DNA of 64,000 bases from Microbispora sp. H11081. Its GTDB lineage: Bacteria; Actinomycetota; Actinomycetes; Streptosporangiales; Streptosporangiaceae. A program made the translations under genes and the position numbers. Location: positions 186,001-250,000 of the forward strand of contig NZ_JABBWV010000005.1 in NCBI RefSeq assembly GCF_012999535.1. The letters run 5' to 3'. Below are positions 17,224 through 36,220 of the stretch, piece by piece; position 1 is the stretch's first letter; each line of letters opens with the position of its first letter. Under the pieces are notes generated by a model. The model saw nothing but the letters and a program-made list of their open reading frames with translations, did no database searches and was not told the DNA's origin.

Positions 17224-18540
17224 TCAGGCGGCGGGGCCCTCGTCGGGGATCCACGAGCCGTGGAACCCGGCGGGCACCCGGCGCGGCAGCCGTACGGACG
17301 CCACGCGCGCCAGGTCGGACGCGTCGAGCACCAGCAGTTCCGCGCCGTGGTCGGTGCCCGCGATCGACAGCAGCCACCCCTCGTCCTCGGCCTGCGCGCC
17401 CGCGGCGGGGACGAACACGGCCTCACCGGGCGAGCTCTCGCCTGTCCGGTGTGCCCGGCTCGCACCGGTCGCGGTGTCGTACTTCACGATCGCGCCCTTG
17501 CTGACCGCGTAGATGTAACGGCTGGTCAGGCCCGTACGGGTCTCGTTGATCGTGGGGAACTCGACGGCCAGGTCGTCGAGTTGCTCGTCCTTGGCGATGC
17601 CGGTGGCCGGGTCGAGAACCCAGCGGTGCAGGGCCGCGCCGCCGGTGTGGGCGACCGGGTTGGCCACGCCGCCGATGGTCGGCCAGAAGCCGCAGAACGC
17701 CCCGGGCGAGTAGCGCACCGCGTCGACGACGACGCGCCCGTGCTCGTCCTCGCTCGCGTTGCCGACGTGGAAGACGTAGCAGGGGTCGATCTCGAACCAC
17801 CGCACGTCGCCGGTCGCGCGGCTCATCACGCCCAGCCGGGCGCCGTAGGAGTCGTCCCACTGGTACGGCATGCCCCGGCCCACCAGGTCGAAGTCGAACA
17901 CGACCGGCAGGTCGAGCCACACCACGTGGTGCTCGGTGATCGCGAAGTCGTGGGCCATGGTGGGCCCGGGGACGTCCACCGGCCTGCTCTCCACCAGTTC
18001 GCCGGCCGCGGACAGGCGGTGATAGGTGAGGTAGGGCTCCGCCCAGCCGTACCCGAAGAAGTGCAGATCCCCCGTGACCGGGTCCTCCTTCGGGTGCGCG
18101 GTCATCGCCGTGGCGAGCCGGCCGCCGAAGTCGCACGGGCCGACCGTGTCGAGCTCCGGCGTCATCTCGTAAGGCAGGCCGTTCTCCACGAGCGCGAGGA
18201 TCTTGTCGGCGTGCCGGATGACGTGCGTGTTGGCGGGGACGGCGGCGAGATCCACGCCGCGCTCGCCCACGTAGGGCGCGCCGTCGAGGCGGGTGGTGCG
18301 CACCCAGCGGTTGCGGTACCACTCGGCCCGCCCGTCGCGCAGCCGGATGCCGTGGATCATTCCGTGGCCGACGAACCAGTGCCCGGGATCCTCGCCGGGA
18401 CGCGGGTTGGGGCCGTTGCGGAAGTAGCGGCCGGTGAGCTCGGGCGGCAGGGTCCCCTCGACGGCCAGGGCGAGGGCGTCGATCTCGTCGGGCACCGGGG
18501 CAAGCCGGCCGGTCAGGTAGGAGGCGGTGGTCTCGGTCAT
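17224..18540 (-). CDS. Carotenoid (apocarotenoid) oxygenase family protein
   Basis: This 438-residue enzyme is a predicted seven-bladed propeller with four iron-binding histidines at the expected places: His149 (TAHPKED), His197 (MAHDFAIT), His258 (YVFHVGN) and His427 (FHGSWIP). It cleaves carotenoids, apocarotenoids or related double bonds using Fe(II) and O2. It is the second gene of an operon with a membrane protein (15-base gap), and the operon is divergent from a PadR regulator with shared operators. No carotenoid biosynthesis gene is in the window apart from idi at 38.6 kb. Confidence 0.93.
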   Translation of the reverse strand: MTETTASYLTGRLAPVPDEIDALALAVEGTLPPELTGRYFRNGPNPRPGEDPGHWFVGHGMIHGIRLRDGRAEWYRNRWVRTTRLDGAPYVGERGVDLAAVPANTHVIRHADKILALVENGLPYEMTPELDTVGPCDFGGRLATAMTAHPKEDPVTGDLHFFGYGWAEPYLTYHRLSAAGELVESRPVDVPGPTMAHDFAITEHHVVWLDLPVVFDFDLVGRGMPYQWDDSYGARLGVMSRATGDVRWFEIDPCYVFHVGNASEDEHGRVVVDAVRYSPGAFCGFWPTIGGVANPVAHTGGAALHRWVLDPATGIAKDEQLDDLAVEFPTINETRTGLTSRYIYAVSKGAIVKYDTATGASRAHRTGESSPGEAVFVPAAGAQAEDEGWLLSIAGTDHGAELLVLDASDLARVASVRLPRRVPAGFHGSWIPDEGPAA

Positions 18541-19129: not shown

Positions 19130-19192
19130 ACATTCCATTAGTGACATGTCGAAAGTAGAACCTCCAGGTGTGACATGTCAACACAGGAATGT
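19130..19192. promoter_or_regulatory. Symmetric PadR operator array
   Basis: GTGACATGTC occurs twice (19141-19150 and 19170-19179), each containing the palindrome GACATGTC. Outside them lies an inverted pair, ACATTCC (19130-19136) and GGAATGT (19186-19192). The array fills the gap between the divergent membrane-protein and PadR starts. Palindromes built from ATGT/ACAT half sites are typical of PadR operators. Confidence 0.7.
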
Positions 19193-19204
19193 AGGATCGG
19201 GCCC

Positions 19205-19759
19205 ATGAGCCTTCGTCACGCCGCGCTCGGCCTCCTGTCCGCCGGGCCCGCCAGCGGGTACGACCTGCTGAAGACCTTCGAGATCTCCCTGGCCGAGGTC
19301 TGGCCCGCCACCCAGAGCCAGCTCTACGGCGAGCTCGGCCGGCTGGCCAAGGAAGGTCTGGTGCGCGTCGTGTCGGAGGGCCCGCGAGGACGCAAGGAGT
19401 ACGAGATCACCGAGGAGGGCCTCGCCGAGCTGCGCCACTGGCTGGTCGAGGTGGCGCCCAACCTGTCCCGGCGCAACGACATGCTGCTCCGCGTCTTCTT
19501 CCTCGACCAGGTCGACGCCGACGCCGCCCGCGGCTACCTGGAGCGGCTGGCCCAGCAGGCCGTCCACGAGCACGACCAGCTCCGCGGCGTCCGCGAGTCC
19601 GTCATCAGCCAGGGCGACGACGCGCTGCGCATGTACGGCGACATCGCCCTGGAGTGGGGCCTGCGCCTGACCGCCGCGCAGCGCGACTGGGCCGAGTGGG
19701 CGGCCGCCCGGGTGGCGGCGCTGGAGCAGCAGAAAGCGGGGCACGCCGCGGCGGAGTGA
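19205..19759 (+). CDS. PadR family transcriptional regulator
   Basis: This is a 184-residue regulator from ATG 19205. The winged helix domain reads SLRHAALGLLSAGPASGYDLL and ATQSQLYGELGRLAKEGLV with the wing RGRKEYEITEEG; the C-terminal helical dimer domain matches PadR subfamily 2 (Vir_act_alpha_C). The frame extends upstream to 19175, but that would run through the operator. It probably represses the divergent membrane protein/carotenoid oxygenase operon and itself. Confidence 0.92.
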   Translation: MSLRHAALGLLSAGPASGYDLLKTFEISLAEVWPATQSQLYGELGRLAKEGLVRVVSEGPRGRKEYEITEEGLAELRHWLVEVAPNLSRRNDMLLRVFFLDQVDADAARGYLERLAQQAVHEHDQLRGVRESVISQGDDALRMYGDIALEWGLRLTAAQRDWAEWAAARVAALEQQKAGHAAAE

Positions 19760-19795: not shown

Positions 19796-22651
19796 TCAGT
19801 GGGTGGCCATGTCCACGAAGCGGCTGTAGTGGCCCTGGAAGGCCACCGTGACCGTGGCGGTCGGACCGTTACGGTGCTTGGCCACGATCAGGTCCGCCTC
19901 GCCCGCGCGCGGCGACTCCCGCTCGTACGCGTCCTCCCGGTGCAGCAGGATGACCATGTCGGCATCTTGCTCGATCGATCCCGATTCGCGTAGGTCTGAC
20001 ACCTGCGGGCGCTTGTCCGTACGCTGCTCGGGACCACGGTTGAGCTGGGAGATCGCGATGACCGGCACCTCCAGCTCCTTGGCCAGCAGCTTCAGGGCCC
20101 GGGAGAGCTCGGAGACCTCCTGCTGGCGGCTCTCGGTCTTCTTCGGCGAGCTCATCAGCTGGAGATAGTCGACGATGACGAACCGCAGGTCGTGACGCTG
20201 CTTGAGGCGGCGGCACTTCGCCCGGATCTCCATCATCGACATGTTCGGGGAGTCGTCGATGAACAGCGGCGCCTCGGCGACCTCGCCCATGCGGCGGGCC
20301 ATCCGCGTCCAGTCGTCGTCGCTCATCGTGCCCGAGCGCATGGTGTGCAGCGCCACCCGCGCCTCGGCCGACAGCAGACGCATGGTGATCTCGTTGCGCG
20401 ACATTTCAAGCGAGAAGACGACTGTGGTCATCCCATGCTTGATCGCCGCAGATCGGGCGAAATCCAGACCCAAAGTCGAGTTGTGCGTGGGGATGCATGA
20501 CCTGCCGGCCAGATACATATGGTCGGCGTTGTCCACCTCCACACACCTCACCGGGACGGAAGACACCGGGCGAACATCCACGATGTAACGCACCCGCGTG
20601 GTCGGATGGGCCTTCGTCACCTGCCTGTCGGCCTTCCGCGCGAGCCGGAAGACCTTCTCCGCCGGAGTGAAGTTGATCATGTAGCAGGTGGACGACTTCG
20701 CGGTCCTGCCCTTGACGGGCTTCGTCCTCATCGTGGCCTTGTAGCCGAGGCTGAGCACAAGCTCCAGGGCGTCCTCCGCGAGCCTGCGGTTCGTCAGCGA
20801 GAGCTGCACCTGCCCGCCACGGTTCACATAACCGTCGGTGTCGAGGAGCCCGGCCAGCAGATCCCGCCGCTGGCGTTCGGATGCGCGCAGGTACGCCGCC
20901 GGAATGTGCTTGCCACCGAACACGCCGAGGCCGCGCAGGACCGCCTGCACGCTGCCGTGGTCGTCGCAATCCTGGCATCGCCACCGGCCTGACGAAGGCT
21001 TGCCACAGTCGACGCAGCTCGGCGGGGCCACGGAAGTCATCACGGAGCTCGCCATGTCCGCACAGGACCGTCCGCACACCCGCATCTGAGGGGTCTTGGG
21101 CATGAAAAGCGCTCCGCAGACGACGCAGGGACGCTCCGGCTCGGGAAGCTTCAGCGCATAGGCGATGCCTGTGCTCAGCTGGTCCACTCGCAGGCCCTCG
21201 GACTCGAGCTGGGCGACGATCTCGGGCTCGACGGTCGTGATCATCGCGCGGTCGCTGTGGCCGTCCCCGAGCCAGACGCCCAGAGCGTACGGCGAGAGGG
21301 GCAGCTCCCGCTCGGGCAGGTCGAACGCCTCCGCGACGGCCACAGCGTGGTTCGGGCGGTTGCCCGACGAGGCGCAGCGCAAAGTCGCGGCGATCTGCTC
21401 GGTGGTCACGACGTCGCCGCGGATGGCGGTCGTGGCCGCGTTCCTCGGCTTGCGCACGTGCTCGTTCAGGCTCTCGAAGAGCCGCCTGCGCGAGTACACG
21501 GGCGTGTTCCAGACATAGCTACGGGCCGGGCCGTTCACCGGGCGGGGCGCCTTCCCCGCCGATCCGACCACGCGCTCCACCGTGTGCAGCACGTTGCGGA
21601 ACTGCGAGCCCACGACGGCCAGCGCCTCCCGATGAGTGATGAGCTCGTCGGGAAGCGTCAGAGCCGCGGCGTTGGCGTCCTCCACCTTCCGCAGCGCGGC
21701 GGAGGACCAGTAATGGCTTGTTCTGCTCTCCGAGCGCTGCCGGCGGCCGGCCCGCGTGCTCGTACGCCACTGGTGCTGGGCGTCGGCCACGATGACCGTG
21801 CCGTCGCTGAACTCGACCTCGTAGCAGGGCCTGTCCACCATGACGTCCGTGGCCGCCACGACACGCGTCGGGCGTCCGTCGGCGCCGATGAGATGGTCAC
21901 CGACCTCCACCTCGCCCATCGTGGTCCACCCATCGGGGGTGGGCAGCGGTGTGTCGAGGGCCAACGCCTTTCCGATGGCAGGACGAGCGGCGACGACGAT
22001 CATCTGTCCGGGGTGGAGGCCGTTCGTCAGGGCGTCGAGGTCCTGGAAGCCGGTGGGCACGCCGACCATCTGGCCGCCGCGGCTGCCGATGGCCTCGATC
22101 TCGTCCAGCGCCGCCGGCATGATCTCCGACAGCGGGAGATAGTCCTCCGAGGTGCGGCGCTCGGTGACCTTGTAGATCTCGGCCTGCGCGCGGTCGACCA
22201 GGTCGTCGACCTCCTCGCCCTGGCCGCCGTACCCGTAGGACACGATGCGGGTGCCGGCCTCGATGAGGCGGCGCAGGACGGCCTGCTCCCTGACGATCTT
22301 CGCGTAGTAGCCGGCGTTCGCGGCGGTGGGCACGATCGCGGTGAGCGTGTGCAGGTAGGCGCCGCCGCCGACCCTGGCGACCTCGCCGCGCTTCTGCAAC
22401 TCGTCGAAGACGGTCACGGAGTCCGCGGGCTCGCCCCGGCCGTACAGGTCGGTGATCACCTCGAAGACGATCTGGTGGGCCGGCCGGTAGAAGTCGTCGG
22501 CGCGCAGCACCTCGATGACGTCGGCGATGGCATCCTTGGACAGCAGCATGCCGCCCAGCACCGACTGCTCGGCCTCGATGTTGTGCGGCGGCGTCCGCTC
22601 GAACATCGCGTCCGAGCCTCCCGGTCCCCCCGGGAAGTCGAGCACGCTCAC
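19796..22651 (-). CDS. dnaB: Replicative DNA helicase DnaB, intein-containing precursor
   Basis: The precursor is 951 residues long. Residues 1-228 and 725-951 join to a 455-residue DnaB: N-terminal helical domain (about 20-120), linker, and RecA-like motor. The intein (229-724) splits Walker A between Gly-Lys and Ser-Thr (ARPAIGK / STLGLDF), so the helicase is inactive until splicing. Walker B is RFVIVDYLQLM. The start is GTG 22651 after an AGGGGG box. DnaB unwinds the fork at the nearby oriC. The upstream gap carries several DnaA-box-like words. It is divergent from the MATE gene. Confidence 0.96.
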   Translation of the reverse strand: MSVLDFPGGPGGSDAMFERTPPHNIEAEQSVLGGMLLSKDAIADVIEVLRADDFYRPAHQIVFEVITDLYGRGEPADSVTVFDELQKRGEVARVGGGAYLHTLTAIVPTAANAGYYAKIVREQAVLRRLIEAGTRIVSYGYGGQGEEVDDLVDRAQAEIYKVTERRTSEDYLPLSEIMPAALDEIEAIGSRGGQMVGVPTGFQDLDALTNGLHPGQMIVVAARPAIGKALALDTPLPTPDGWTTMGEVEVGDHLIGADGRPTRVVAATDVMVDRPCYEVEFSDGTVIVADAQHQWRTSTRAGRRQRSESRTSHYWSSAALRKVEDANAAALTLPDELITHREALAVVGSQFRNVLHTVERVVGSAGKAPRPVNGPARSYVWNTPVYSRRRLFESLNEHVRKPRNAATTAIRGDVVTTEQIAATLRCASSGNRPNHAVAVAEAFDLPERELPLSPYALGVWLGDGHSDRAMITTVEPEIVAQLESEGLRVDQLSTGIAYALKLPEPERPCVVCGALFMPKTPQMRVCGRSCADMASSVMTSVAPPSCVDCGKPSSGRWRCQDCDDHGSVQAVLRGLGVFGGKHIPAAYLRASERQRRDLLAGLLDTDGYVNRGGQVQLSLTNRRLAEDALELVLSLGYKATMRTKPVKGRTAKSSTCYMINFTPAEKVFRLARKADRQVTKAHPTTRVRYIVDVRPVSSVPVRCVEVDNADHMYLAGRSCIPTHNSTLGLDFARSAAIKHGMTTVVFSLEMSRNEITMRLLSAEARVALHTMRSGTMSDDDWTRMARRMGEVAEAPLFIDDSPNMSMMEIRAKCRRLKQRHDLRFVIVDYLQLMSSPKKTESRQQEVSELSRALKLLAKELEVPVIAISQLNRGPEQRTDKRPQVSDLRESGSIEQDADMVILLHREDAYERESPRAGEADLIVAKHRNGPTATVTVAFQGHYSRFVDMATH
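20480..21967 (-). other. Class 3-like DnaB intein with LAGLIDADG endonuclease
   Basis: This is a 496-residue in-frame protein intron. It starts with Ala1 (ALALDTPLPTP) rather than Cys or Ser and ends PTHN before extein Ser. Block B has His65 and Trp67, block F has Cys475 (VRCVEVDNADHMYLAG) and block G has Thr494. This W-C-T set defines class 3 inteins, which use the block F cysteine as first nucleophile. LAGLIDADG-type motifs are YALGVWLGDG and LLAGLLDTDGYV. Between them lie cysteine pairs (CVVC, CGRSC, CVDC, CQDC) that look like two zinc ribbons. Confidence 0.92.
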
Positions 22652-22940: not shown

Positions 22941-24269
22941 ATGCCTCTTACCTCGGGATCCGGACACGGCCGCGCCCACGACAGGGAGATCCTCCGGCTC
23001 GCGATCCCGGCATTCGGGGCACTGGTGGCCGAGCCGCTGTTCCTGCTCACCGACTCCGTCATCGTCGGCCACCTCCCCGATCCTGCGCTCGGCGCTCTCG
23101 GCGTCGCCAGCGCGGCCCTGTCCGCTCTCGTCGGGCTGTGCGTGTTCCTCGCGTACGCCACCACCGCCGCGGTGGCGCGGAGGCTGGGGGCGGGAGACGT
23201 CAGGCAGGCGATGCGCCAGGGGATGGACGGCCTGTGGCTGGCCGCGATCATCGGCCTGGCCGTCAGCGTGGCGTGCTGGCCTCTTGCTCCGTTTATCGTA
23301 CACCTGTTCGGAGCGACCGGCCAGCTCGCCGCGCAGGCCGTCACCTACCTGCGCATCAGCCTCCTGGGCATCCCCGCCATGCTGCTGATCTTCGCCGGCA
23401 CCGGAGTCCTGCGCGGGCTGCAGGACACCCGCACGCCGCTGCTCGTGTCCGTCGCGTCGTTCGCGCTCAACGGGCTGCTCAACATCTGGTTCGTGCTCGG
23501 CCTGGGCTGGGGGCTCGCCGGCTCCGCCTGGGGCACGGTCATCGCCCAGTCCCTGGCCGCCGCCACCTACCTCGTCATCGTCGTGCGGGCCGCCCGCGCG
23601 CACGGGGCCTCGCTGCTGCCCGACCTCGCCGGGGTGCGGGCCGCGGGCGCCGCCGGGTTCGCCCTGGTCGTCCGTACGGCATGCCTGCAGGCCGTGCTGC
23701 TCGTCGCCACCTCGCTCGCCACGCGGATGGGCGACGACCAGATCGGCGCGCACACGATCGCCGTCCGGATCTGGACGTTCCTCGCCTTCGCCCTCGACGC
23801 CATCGCCATCGCGGGGCAGGCCATCACGGGCCGCGCGCTGGGCTCGGGCGACACCGTCGGCACCCGGGCGGCCACCCGGCGCATGGTCATGTGGGGCGTC
23901 GCCTGCGGAGTCGTCTTCTGCGCCGCCGTCCTGCTGGCGCGCCCGCTCGTCCCCGGCCTGTTCGACGCGCACGGCGAGGCCGCCGCCGAACTGCTGGCCG
24001 TACTGTGGCCGGTCGCGCTCCTGCAGCCGGTCGCGGGCGTCGTGTTCGTGCTGGACGGGGTCCTCATCGGGGCCGGAGACCAGCGCTACCTCGCCTGGGC
24101 GGGCCTGTGGACGACGCTGGCCTATCTGCCGTTCGCCGCCGTCGCCGGCAGCCTCGTCGGCCTGTGGGTCGCGCTCGGCGCGTGGATGGCCGCCCGGCTC
24201 GTCACGCTCTCCCTGCGCGCGTACGGCACCGCCTGGATGGTCACCGGGGCGTCCCGGACGACCGCCTGA
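22941..24269 (+). CDS. MATE family efflux transporter (DinF-like)
   Basis: This 442-residue membrane protein has twelve hydrophobic segments in two similar halves, typical of MATE exporters that expel cationic compounds using Na+ or H+. N-terminal features are EILRLAIPAFGALVAEPLFLLTDSVIVGHL; the second half begins near GDDQIGAHTIAVRIW. Length is normal. The start is ATG 22941. It is divergent from dnaB and convergent with the amino-acid ABC operon, with stops 3 bases apart. The substrate is unknown. Confidence 0.92.
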   Translation: MPLTSGSGHGRAHDREILRLAIPAFGALVAEPLFLLTDSVIVGHLPDPALGALGVASAALSALVGLCVFLAYATTAAVARRLGAGDVRQAMRQGMDGLWLAAIIGLAVSVACWPLAPFIVHLFGATGQLAAQAVTYLRISLLGIPAMLLIFAGTGVLRGLQDTRTPLLVSVASFALNGLLNIWFVLGLGWGLAGSAWGTVIAQSLAAATYLVIVVRAARAHGASLLPDLAGVRAAGAAGFALVVRTACLQAVLLVATSLATRMGDDQIGAHTIAVRIWTFLAFALDAIAIAGQAITGRALGSGDTVGTRAATRRMVMWGVACGVVFCAAVLLARPLVPGLFDAHGEAAAELLAVLWPVALLQPVAGVVFVLDGVLIGAGDQRYLAWAGLWTTLAYLPFAAVAGSLVGLWVALGAWMAARLVTLSLRAYGTAWMVTGASRTTA

Positions 24270-33292: not shown

Positions 33293-36220
33293 TCAGGCGC
33301 CGCCGCCGTTCTTGCCGTTGCCGGGCCCTGCGGGCATCGCGGCCGGGGGCCCGGCGGGGATGTTCAGCGGGACGTCGCCGCCTCCGGGGCCGCCGTCGTG
33401 GCCGCCCTGGCCCGGGTCGTCGCCGAAGCCCCTGCCGCCACCGCCGCCGTCGTCACATCCGGGGCCGCCGTCGAAGCAGCCGTCGTCGTCGAAGAAGTCG
33501 TTCGGGATGTCGTTGGGGAACCCGCCCTCGTCCGGATCCGGGCTGGGCGACGGCGTCGGGCTCGGCACGATGTTCTCCGGGGTGCCCAGCCCGGCCTTCT
33601 GCGGGAACTGCTCGACCGGCTTGCCCGTGTGCGCCTCCAGCATGAAGGTGCGCCAGATCGTGGTCGGCGGGCCGGCGCCCTCGAAGCCCAGCGACACCTC
33701 CTTGACATGGGTGTACGGGTTGTTGGGGCCGTACTTCTTGCTCTCTTTTCCGCCCGGCGTCTGCGGGCAGTTGGAGTACAGCGGCTGAACGATCTTTCCG
33801 CTCTTGGTGACGCACTGCTCGCGGTACATGCCCACCGCGACCGACAACTGCGGGGTGAAGCCGACGAACCAGGCTTCCTTCTCGTCGTTGTTGGTGCCGG
33901 TCTTGCCGGCGGCCGGGCGGCCGATGCCCTTGCCCGCCGCTGTGCCCGACTTGAGGACCTCCTCCATGGCCGCCACCGAGTCGGCCGCCGCCTCGGGCGT
34001 GATCACCTGCTTGACGTCGCGACGCTCGGCGAAGACGACATCCTTGTCCTTCCGGACCTCCTTGACCACGTGGTAGTCGATGTGCTTGCCCTCGTTCGCG
34101 AAGATCGAGTAGCCGGCGGCCTGCTCCACGGGGGTGACCCCGGCGCTGCCGATGGAGAACTGGTACTTGTGTTCCGCGATGTCCTTGTCCAGGCTCTCCT
34201 TGCTGAGCCCCGCATCCTCGGCGATCTGCTTCACCGCGGTGAGCTGCCCGATCGTGCCGTTCGCCTCGTCCAGCTTGTACGCCATGGACGCGAAGGCCGT
34301 GTTGATCGAGTGGGAGGTCGCGTAGATCGCGTTGATGGCGTTCGGCACCGAGTGGCCGTTGGTGATGCCCTTCTCGAAGCCCGGCAGCTTCTCCGGCACG
34401 GTCTCGTTTCCGGGCAGGTAGCTGTTCAGGCTGTAGCCCGCGTCGAGCCAGGCGGCCAGCACGTACGGCTTGAACGCCGAGGCGGCCTGCTTCCTGGACT
34501 GGAACGGCTCGTTCCAGGGGTCCTTCAGATAGTCGTTGCCGCCGTAGAAGGCGAGCACCCGCCCGGTCTTGGGATCCACCGCGGCCAGGCCGGCGTGGAA
34601 CTCCTTGGACATGCCGGAGGTGGTGGCGAGGACCGCCTTCTTGGCGGCCTGCATGAGCCTTCTGTCGAAGGTCGAGACGATCTTGTAGCCGCCGCTCCTG
34701 ACCTGGTCCGCGGACAGGTTCATGCGCGACCCGAGCTCGTTCATGACCTGGGTGATCATGTAGCCCCTGAGGCCGCCGTACTCGTCCCTGTTGTTCACCG
34801 GGACGGTCTTGGGGAACTTGGCCGTGCTCGGCAGCTTGCCGTACTTGGCCGGGTCGAGCTTCGCCATGGCGTTGACGACGTCCTTGAACCGGCTCTGCAA
34901 CCGCGGGGAGTCGGCGTCCAGCGCGGGCGTCTGGATGCGCGCGGCGAGGTAGGCGCCCTGCTCCGGGGTGAGCTGGTCGACGTGCTTCTTGAAGTACGCC
35001 TGCGCGGCGGCCTCGATGCCGTACGCACGGCCGAAGGGCACCGTGTTGAGGTACTGCAGCAGGATCTGGTCCTTGGGCATCTCCTTGTCGAGCTTGACCG
35101 CGACGAAGATCTCCTTGATCTTCCGCTTGATGGAGACTTCCTGGCTGAGGCCGTCGTAGTAGTTGCGGGCCATCTGCTGGGTGATGGTCGAGGCGCCCTG
35201 GAGCTGCTGCCCGGTCGCGGTCATGTAGACCGATCGCATCATGCCGGTGATCGAGATGCCGCTGTCCGACCGGAAGGTGTCGTTCTCGATCGCGATGACC
35301 GCGTCCTGGACGTGCCGTGGCACCTTGTTGATGTCGTTCAGGATGACGCGGGGGGTGCCGACCTTGCCGATCACCGTCTTGCCGTCGTTGTAGTAGATGG
35401 TGCTGCCCTGGGCCACGGCCTCCGCCTGGGTCGCGGTCGGCGTCGGGGTGTTGGCGTACGCCACGGCGATCATGCCGAAGGTGCCGGCGGCGAGCACGGT
35501 GAAGGCCGCCACGAGGATCTTCCAGCTCGGCAGGAAACGCTTCCAGCCCCTGCGGCGCGGCTTCTCGTCGTCCTCGTCGAAGTCACCGAAGTCGCGCGGG
35601 TCCCGGGGACCGCGTCCGCCGGGCCCTTCCGGGCCGCCCGGGCCGCCCGGGCCGCCGGGGCCGCCGGGGCCACGGCCACCCCGGGCCTGGGGCCTGCGGC
35701 GGCGTCCGCCGGTCTGGATCGCCTCGGTGCTCTGCCCGTCCGCGTCCCCGCGACGACCGCCGGCCGGCATGCCCATCGCCTGGGTGCGCTCGTCCGCGCC
35801 GGGGCGGCCTGGACCGCCGAACCCCCCGGGGCCACCGGGACCGGCCGCGTAGCGCGGGTCGCGGCCGGGGTGTCCGCCGCCCATCGGCCCGCGAGGTCCC
35901 TGCTGAGGTCCTTGCTGAGGCCCCTGCGGGGCTCCCGGTGCGGGTCTGTGCGGCGGCTGGCCCGGGGGCACCGCGTTCATGGCCGCCGTGTCCTCGAAGG
36001 CCGCCGCCTCACGCCGGCGCTGCTCGGGTCCTGCGGACCGGGCGCCGCGGGGCGGCTGCGGGACCGGGCCCCTGCCGGGCTGTCTCGGCGGAGCGGGCTC
36101 GCCGTACTCGTCGGATTCCCGGGGCGAGCGACGACGGCGCCCAGGGCGGGATGATCCACCGGAGCCCGAGGCGTCCTCGGGACGGCCGGTCGGCTCCGGT
36201 CCATAGCTGCTGTTGGTCAC
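33293..36220 (-). CDS. Bifunctional class A penicillin-binding protein
   Basis: This 975-residue peptidoglycan synthase has a disordered cytoplasmic N-terminus of about 231 residues, rich in Pro, Gly and Arg with a GPGG repeat run near 183-203, and a membrane helix at 232-255. The GT51 glycosyltransferase has GASTITQQMARNYY and KIKEIFVAVKL. The transpeptidase has active-site Ser in ASAFKPY (SxxK), SHSIN (SxN) and GKTGT. A glycine/aspartate-rich tail follows. TxA(M/I) words recur in the N-terminus (TAAM, TQAM, TEAI). The start is GTG 36220. Confidence 0.95.
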   Translation of the reverse strand: MTNSSYGPEPTGRPEDASGSGGSSRPGRRRRSPRESDEYGEPAPPRQPGRGPVPQPPRGARSAGPEQRRREAAAFEDTAAMNAVPPGQPPHRPAPGAPQGPQQGPQQGPRGPMGGGHPGRDPRYAAGPGGPGGFGGPGRPGADERTQAMGMPAGGRRGDADGQSTEAIQTGGRRRRPQARGGRGPGGPGGPGGPGGPEGPGGRGPRDPRDFGDFDEDDEKPRRRGWKRFLPSWKILVAAFTVLAAGTFGMIAVAYANTPTPTATQAEAVAQGSTIYYNDGKTVIGKVGTPRVILNDINKVPRHVQDAVIAIENDTFRSDSGISITGMMRSVYMTATGQQLQGASTITQQMARNYYDGLSQEVSIKRKIKEIFVAVKLDKEMPKDQILLQYLNTVPFGRAYGIEAAAQAYFKKHVDQLTPEQGAYLAARIQTPALDADSPRLQSRFKDVVNAMAKLDPAKYGKLPSTAKFPKTVPVNNRDEYGGLRGYMITQVMNELGSRMNLSADQVRSGGYKIVSTFDRRLMQAAKKAVLATTSGMSKEFHAGLAAVDPKTGRVLAFYGGNDYLKDPWNEPFQSRKQAASAFKPYVLAAWLDAGYSLNSYLPGNETVPEKLPGFEKGITNGHSVPNAINAIYATSHSINTAFASMAYKLDEANGTIGQLTAVKQIAEDAGLSKESLDKDIAEHKYQFSIGSAGVTPVEQAAGYSIFANEGKHIDYHVVKEVRKDKDVVFAERRDVKQVITPEAAADSVAAMEEVLKSGTAAGKGIGRPAAGKTGTNNDEKEAWFVGFTPQLSVAVGMYREQCVTKSGKIVQPLYSNCPQTPGGKESKKYGPNNPYTHVKEVSLGFEGAGPPTTIWRTFMLEAHTGKPVEQFPQKAGLGTPENIVPSPTPSPSPDPDEGGFPNDIPNDFFDDDGCFDGGPGCDDGGGGGRGFGDDPGQGGHDGGPGGGDVPLNIPAGPPAAMPAGPGNGKNGGGA

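Follow-up and report, generated by a model that had tools for sequence, protein, structure and literature searches.

A full-length class 3 intein within the DnaB P-loop of Microbispora sp. H11081, with a zinc-ribbon-like cysteine segment between its LAGLIDADG motifs

The intein and its host gene

Our analysis indicates that the chromosomal dnaB gene of Microbispora sp. H11081 (Streptosporangiaceae), a soil actinobacterium, is interrupted at its P-loop (DnaB-b) site by a mobile, full-length class 3 intein, and from the sequence we put the probability of this reading at about 94%. The splicing centre of the intein is ordinary for class 3; the unusual part is a zinc-finger-like segment inside the predicted DNA-cutting domain. 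The gene lies in assembly GCF_012999535.1, contig NZ_JABBWV010000005.1, positions 186,001-250,000, and all coordinates below are positions within this stretch of 64,000 nucleotides (the window). The intein under study is referred to as the H11081 intein, or as the H11081 copy where copies are counted.

Relatives were collected by a scan of genome contigs, which found 178, and the best 80 were taken. Two (L044 and L058) had no complete intein and were dropped; with the H11081 copy added, the set comprises 79 copies. Selection of the 80 rested on similarity to the H11081 intein and on six peptide patterns, of which two lie in the cysteine segment; mini-inteins and copies that lack this segment are therefore under-sampled. 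The features of the gene, all on the minus strand, are as follows, with the basis of each in brackets.

19796..22651, minus: dnaB, encoding an intein-interrupted replicative helicase precursor of 951 amino acids (DnaB N and C domains; TIGR00665, E 1.3e-161)
21968..22651, minus: N-extein, ending AARPAIGK (read from sequence)
20480..21967, minus: intein, 496 amino acids (open reading; homology; unbroken GKST at the same place in nine intein-free congeners)
19796..20479, minus: C-extein, starting STLGLDF, with Ser+1 (read from sequence)
21965..21967, minus: Ala1, a non-nucleophilic first residue of the intein (A in 79/79)
21824..21826, minus: Cys48, counterpart of Cys48 of the Mycobacterium smegmatis intein MsmDnaBi1, where it is the disulfide partner of the block F Cys (C in 79/79; PMC6195587)
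21773..21775, minus: His65, block B:10 (H in 79/79)
21767..21769, minus: Trp67, block B:12 (W in 79/79)
21425..21742, minus: extra insert, residues 76-181 (model and alignment)
21251..21292, minus: LAGLIDADG helix region 1, residues 226-239, with Asp235 (model and alignment)
20966..21127, minus: eight-cysteine zinc-ribbon-like segment, residues 281-334, CxxC, CxxxC, CxxC, CxxC (alignment and profile comparison)
20825..20860, minus: LAGLIDADG helix region 2, residues 370-381, with Asp376 (PF14528, PF05204; alignment)
20543..20545, minus: Cys475, block F:4, predicted initiating nucleophile (C in 79/79)
20486..20488, minus: Thr494, block G:5 (T in 79/79)
20480..20485, minus: His495-Asn496, block G:6-7 (H and N in 79/79)

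The 496 codons of the intein run without a stop inside the open reading frame of dnaB, which encodes 951 amino acids (reverse complement, 20480-21967). The junctions, AARPAIGK/ALALDT and CIPTHN/STLGLD, split the Walker A motif GxxxxGKST between Lys and Ser (GK/A...N/ST), which is the insertion point that defines the DnaB-b allele. A preliminary description of this DNA had given the same coordinates and residue numbers, which proved exact, without a strand; its placing of the intein in the P-loop is confirmed by the junctions within Walker A. Most of the 496 residues belong to the endonuclease, the cysteine segment and the extra insert, none of which that description mentioned. That the element is an intein and not a chance likeness follows from its terminal blocks, which match class 3 inteins, and from its flanks, which match DnaB.

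Assignment to class 3

Class 3 inteins carry Trp at block B:12, Cys at F:4 and Thr at G:5 (the WCT triad) and have no Cys, Ser or Thr nucleophile at position 1; Ser or Thr at +1 is usual in them (PMC5222942). Residues 1, 67, 475, 494 and 496 of the H11081 intein are A, W, C, T and N, and +1 is Ser. The whole triad was present in 79 of the 79 copies, and Ala1, Cys48, His65, His495 and Asn496 were likewise invariant. The closest solved structures found in a sequence search of the PDB were 6rix, 6riy, 6bs8 and 6own (E 8e-45 to 2e-42), with both the N- and the C-terminal blocks matched. An AlphaFold2 model of the H11081 intein, built from 60 sequences, had a mean confidence (pLDDT) of 88.7 and superposed on 6bs8 at 0.6 Å across 69 columns with 83% identity.

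The two solved relatives are DnaB1 of Mycobacterium chimaera (6rix, 6riy; PMC7664689), which was the top PDB match (E 7.9e-45) and has the same triad and ends, and MsmDnaBi1 (6bs8, 6own; PMC6195587, PMC7360933), which shares with the H11081 intein the P-loop site, Ala1, Cys48, His65, Trp67, the block F Cys, the terminal THN and Ser+1. Unlike the H11081 intein, however, MsmDnaBi1 is a mini-intein of 139 amino acids and M. chimaera DnaB1 a chain of 145 residues, both without an endonuclease; the 496 amino acids of the H11081 intein include a LAGLIDADG domain, the extra insert and the cysteine segment. The class 3 assignment made in the preliminary description on Ala1 and Trp67/Cys475/Thr494 is thus supported, because the triad and Ala1 are present throughout the 79 copies and the homology is to inteins that require the block F Cys. 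No conserved nucleophile at position 1 was found in these relatives, which would have spoken against it. The H11081 intein therefore belongs, as judged from its sequence, to the known actinobacterial family of class 3 inteins at the DnaB P-loop, and its splicing part is one more class 3 intein among many.

It is extremely improbable that this is a class 1 or class 2 intein carrying the WCT residues by chance, in which position 1, or the +1 residue itself, would initiate splicing. Class 2 inteins do likewise start with Ala, but they were described in 2014 as all orthologs of one KlbA intein, with Ser at G:6, Cys at +1 and Asp at F:4 (PMC4031507), whereas the H11081 intein has His495, Ser+1 and Cys475 and lies in DnaB, so class 2 was ruled out. 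Class 1 was ruled out by Ala1 in place of Cys, Ser or Thr, and Ala stands at position 1 in every copy, in a family homologous to proven class 3 inteins. As a control from the same gene, two class 1 inteins at the other DnaB site in two sister species were found to have Cys, Phe, Asp and Val at positions 1, B:12, F:4 and G:5, respectively. The further claim that class 3 is the rarest described class does not hold, since class 2 is restricted to the KlbA orthologs (PMC4031507) and a survey of the nr database counted 1701 class 3 inteins, 82.5% of them with LAGLIDADG motifs (PMC7891396, section 6).

Predicted splicing and dependence of the helicase on it

We infer from its close relatives that the H11081 intein splices. 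Cys475 would attack the peptide bond preceding Ala1, giving a branched thioester at block F; the N-extein would then be transferred to Ser+1, Asn496 would cyclise, and an acyl shift would join GK to ST and restore the Walker A motif. In MsmDnaBi1 the block F residue Cys118 is required, and the C118A variant is splicing-inactive (PMC6195587, PMC7360933).

Only one full-length DnaB was found in a search of the H11081 genome; the second match was a 22-bit fragment within another protein, and no second copy of the intein and no second full-length dnaB were found in that genome. Splicing is very probably essential for the helicase, because the intein splits the ATP-binding loop, and the lack of a second full-length DnaB strengthens this.

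Oxidation of MsmDnaBi1 produces a Cys48-Cys118 disulfide that inhibits splicing (PMC6195587), and splicing is likewise blocked when zinc binds to Cys118, Val119 and Tyr128 (PMC7360933). The counterparts of these residues in the H11081 intein are Cys48, Cys475, Val476 and Tyr485; position 476 is Val in 76/79 copies and position 485 is Tyr in 77/79. By analogy, the splicing of the H11081 intein may be inhibited by oxidation or zinc in the same way. All Cys48 changes tested in MsmDnaBi1 abrogated splicing (PMC6195587), and conservation of Cys48 may therefore stem from a need in splicing and is not proof of regulation. Since only 14 of 38 viral inteins have Cys48, this residue marks the actinobacterial branch and not class 3 overall.

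LAGLIDADG endonuclease and extra insert

The LAGLIDADG_3 and Hom_end models (PF14528 and PF05204) matched above their gathering cut-offs. Two motifs, each with an acidic residue (Asp235 and Asp376), place the domain in the LAGLIDADG (DOD) family, in which such residues are catalytic. Both were present in 73 of the 79 copies, including H11081. The whole model resembled PI-SceI, the VMA1-derived intein, as its best fold match (E 7.5e-18); both have an inserted two-motif LAGLIDADG domain, at an identity of 15%. PI-SceI is a class 1 intein and is not known to have such a cysteine segment.

Ratios of nonsynonymous to synonymous substitution (dN/dS) against three congeners were 0.22-0.35 in the first part of the endonuclease core and 0.10-0.20 in the second, compared with 0.02-0.04 for the extein; the extra insert gave 0.41-0.46 and the cysteine segment 0.30-0.67. 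The core is thus under purifying selection, with the insert and the cysteine segment held more loosely. This domain would cut empty dnaB alleles, after which the intein would be copied in. The extra insert, which has at least 75 residues in 40/79 copies, is predicted in the model to form helices and a two-strand hairpin and looks winged-helix-like by inspection. It would, together with the cysteine segment, probably assist the endonuclease as a DNA-contact or folding module.

A decaying intein, in which splicing or the endonuclease is already gone, is very unlikely to be what we see here. Decay can be suspected from the relatives: a motif Asp was altered in 6/79 (to Glu in two), and fewer than seven of the eight cysteines were present in 24/79. 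The H11081 intein, however, has all splicing residues and both motif Asp residues intact, the dN/dS of its core is 0.10-0.35, and the gene that it interrupts is the single full-length dnaB found in the genome.

One paper described the mycobacterial DnaB-b inteins that it examined as lacking endonucleases (PMC5050341). Six Mycobacterium copies among our 79 were full-length (403-417 amino acids). Given these six and the 82.5% of surveyed class 3 inteins with LAGLIDADG motifs, a full-length class 3 intein is usual. Other actinobacterial DnaB P-loop inteins also have an endonuclease; one example is that of Microbispora hainanensis (L002), which agrees with the H11081 intein in site, length and domains and is 88% identical to it.

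The cysteine segment between the LAGLIDADG motifs

Cysteines 281, 284, 298, 302, 318, 321, 331 and 334 of the H11081 intein lie between the two LAGLIDADG motifs. Across all 79 copies, the filled columns at these eight positions were Cys in 57/58, 56/56, 56/57, 56/59, 71/72, 73/74, 73/73 and 74/74, in that order. Eight cysteines were found in 51 copies, seven in 4, six in 1, four in 18, and none or one in 5. The 55 copies with at least seven span 11 named families (two of the 55, H11081 included, carry no family label). On the tree, the cysteine state (8, 4 or 0) switches at least 12 times, and most of the changes read as losses.

The double zinc ribbon family DZR_2 was matched by 45 of these 55 copies at E <=0.1, the best at 3.2e-6. 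The H11081 segment scored 18.1 bits (E 0.0025) against PF18912 (double zinc ribbon), below the gathering score of 27 bits, and for this reason we call it zinc-ribbon-like and not a member of PF18912. In a profile search of the PDB the segment gave weak matches, of which the best two were ribosomal L37Ae proteins (E 0.0096 and 0.011). A model of the segment by itself was weak (pLDDT 70.6) and had no significant fold match (best E 0.24).

These data suggest that the segment binds zinc. The other possibility, that the eight cysteines hold no metal and the segment is structural, redox-active or merely tolerated, is in our view unlikely. The H11081 score below the gathering threshold, the low confidence of the segment model with its lack of significant fold matches, a dN/dS above that of the endonuclease core, and the frequent loss or halving of the segment among the copies would all suit it. 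The CxxC spacing, the near-universal Cys in filled columns and the 45 matches to the double zinc ribbon family argue instead for zinc, as do the 18 four-cysteine copies, which suggest pairwise loss.

Among the PHROGs, phrog_1333, a family of unknown function, matched the segment of H11081 (E 3.8e-5) and that of copy L056 (E 8.5e-8), and the L056 segment also matched phrog_1271, an HNH endonuclease (E 6e-5). These phage proteins resemble the segment, but they belong to another nuclease type or have no known function. Two viral class 3 inteins, L082 (448-1830) and L087, have other Cys-xxx-GH...CxxC-like stretches between their LAGLIDADG motifs, and that of L082 matched phage HNH endonuclease families (1.7e-4 and 0.003).

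Between H11081 and M. hainanensis, 59/189 bases differ in the segment and 90/1299 elsewhere in the intein (Fisher p 5e-19, with bases taken as independent), so that the two segments are far more diverged than the remainder. Against L003 the figures were 39/189 and 220/1299 (p 0.22), which is no contrast. Within the segment, H11081 is closer to L003 (79.4%) than to L002 (68.8%). This pattern suggests that the segment may have been exchanged as a module. The broader proposal is that a widespread actinobacterial lineage of splicing inteins bears a double zinc ribbon between its LAGLIDADG motifs, and that this ribbon is an exchangeable module for the recognition of DNA which phage HNH nucleases also possess. 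It is tentative, and we rate it at slightly worse than even.

The segment was seen in 6 of 246 genomes, H11081 included, in a scan of the phylum that scored at most 23 candidates per genome and is no measure of distribution. In a viral scan, 54 stretches fitted a pattern of the segment and none was confirmed.

A similar arrangement occurs in yeast HO/WHO, where a LAGLIDADG protein resembling an intein is fused to a zinc finger that contains several CxxC motifs (PMC7282813). However, its zinc finger is C-terminal and it has neither splicing nor exteins, whereas the H11081 segment lies between the LAGLIDADG motifs of an intein. A 2020 paper gives HO/WHO as the sole fusions of an intein with a zinc finger, and zinc fingers have been reported in a non-intein HNH element (PMC11855218). 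Going by titles and the openings of abstracts, we found no open-access paper that describes a zinc finger within the endonuclease of a bacterial intein, which is weak evidence, as most subscription literature lay outside the scope of the search, and no open paper on an intein in DnaB of Streptosporangi- taxa. The segment is possibly an undescribed domain. If the broader proposal is true, no earlier fusion of an intein with a zinc finger would exist beyond the HO/WHO family of yeast. The zinc ribbon would then lie next to a splicing centre that has, in a close relative, a zinc-blocked nucleophile. If the segment binds both zinc and DNA, zinc-finger modules would have entered bacterial splicing inteins besides the intein-derived HO of yeast.

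Distribution and homing within the genus

Among 15 genomes of the genus, H11081 included, nine had no DnaB intein, four had a P-loop intein and two had a class 1 intein at another site. The P-loop site was an uninterrupted GKST in the nine intein-free congeners. In two congeners (G007 and G013), class 1 inteins of 426-427 amino acids (L136 and L139; DLRESG/CLTA...VHN/SIEQ) were observed with the P-loop site empty. One congener also encodes an additional full-length DnaB-like helicase, diverged and intein-free (L141; G009:C29:38312-39595).

The nearest extein among the 51 named copies was that of M. bryophytorum (99.4%), whose intein of 412 amino acids is 66.7% identical to that of H11081. For M. 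hainanensis the extein was 98.9% and the intein 88.3% identical. The exteins of H11081 and congener G002 had a synonymous divergence (dS) of 0.18, and their inteins one of 0.98. As the latter is far above the former, the two intein types of the genus are not co-descended.

Over 60 bases to the left and to the right of the insertion point, the H11081 extein had 86-87% mean identity to the empty alleles, compared with 89-98% elsewhere; the empty alleles among themselves had 87-96% in the same two windows. The three long-type carriers have AAG/TCG as their -1/+1 codons; G002 and every one of the nine empty alleles have AAA/AGC. The flank divergence and the codon pattern fit co-conversion of the flanks.

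A tree of the 79 inteins was made by a quick method, and support was poor for 25 of its 76 inner branches. The Streptosporangiaceae came together in it as a single group of 26, inside which the long type and the short type were separate clades. Several results weigh against the reading as a mobile class 3 intein. The general intein model PF14890 had no match in the H11081 genome, and TIGR01443 had none there at E 0.001; on the whole DnaB protein TIGR01443 reached 16.4 bits, with a cut-off of 15.6, and on the intein alone 15.2. Between H11081 and congener G005 the extein dS was 0.235 and the intein dS 0.244, so for this pair simple inheritance could fit as well as homing. Host family switches 11 times on the tree for 11 named families, which is near the minimum, and movement between families is therefore rare.

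Frequent transfer between families found no support, as extein and intein distances correlate (Spearman 0.65 in 52/79 copies; 27 copies were omitted because a second intein or a variant takes the C-extein off the plain motif). As far as these comparisons go, the intein can be seen to have moved within the genus, and it has rarely passed from one family to another. A count of 155 of 250 matching family genomes was rejected as a measure of site occupancy, many of the matches being partial or other inteins and at most six candidates being scored per genome. TIGR00665 in 120 family genomes detected both uninterrupted and interrupted genes; it does not show the insertion site, and no count was taken.

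The empty, class 3 P-loop (two types) and class 1 second-site alleles of the congeners lie in very similar dnaB genes. This allele set provides natural material for the study of homing and of the cost of an intein to the replicative helicase.

Viral and plasmid relatives

The viral set comprised 44 loci, 38 of them with a complete intein, and in some the N-junction was extrapolated. All three WCT residues were found in 37/38. Position 1 held Ala in 18 inteins, Cys in 5 and Ser in 1; the other 14 had some different residue there. Five viral contigs from IMG/VR (L110-L114) share one identical intein of 371 amino acids with the WCT triad and Cys1 (SAGK/CQPLYA...THN/TIV), in a host helicase that looks like phage UvsW, and L121 has the triad with Ser at the extrapolated position 1. 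Mixed class 1/class 3 signatures of this kind were reportedly described by Tori and Perler in 2011, and we do not claim these inteins as new for that reason.

No close phage donor was found: 625 phage records matched, none of them reaching 60% identity. Plasmid matches above 60% identity covered 14 to 17% of the query among the matches listed (20 of 29). The Brevibacterium phage Rousseau (L163) has a WCT intein in the P-loop of a DnaB-like helicase gene (GAGK/ALALDT...PTHN/TTF), without the cysteine segment.

Neighbouring genes

The following genes were identified around dnaB in the window.

17224-18540, minus: carotenoid-oxygenase-like protein (RPE65 family)
19175-19759, plus: PadR-type regulator
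22941-24269, plus: MatE transporter, beside dnaB
33293-36220, minus: transglycosylase-transpeptidase penicillin-binding protein

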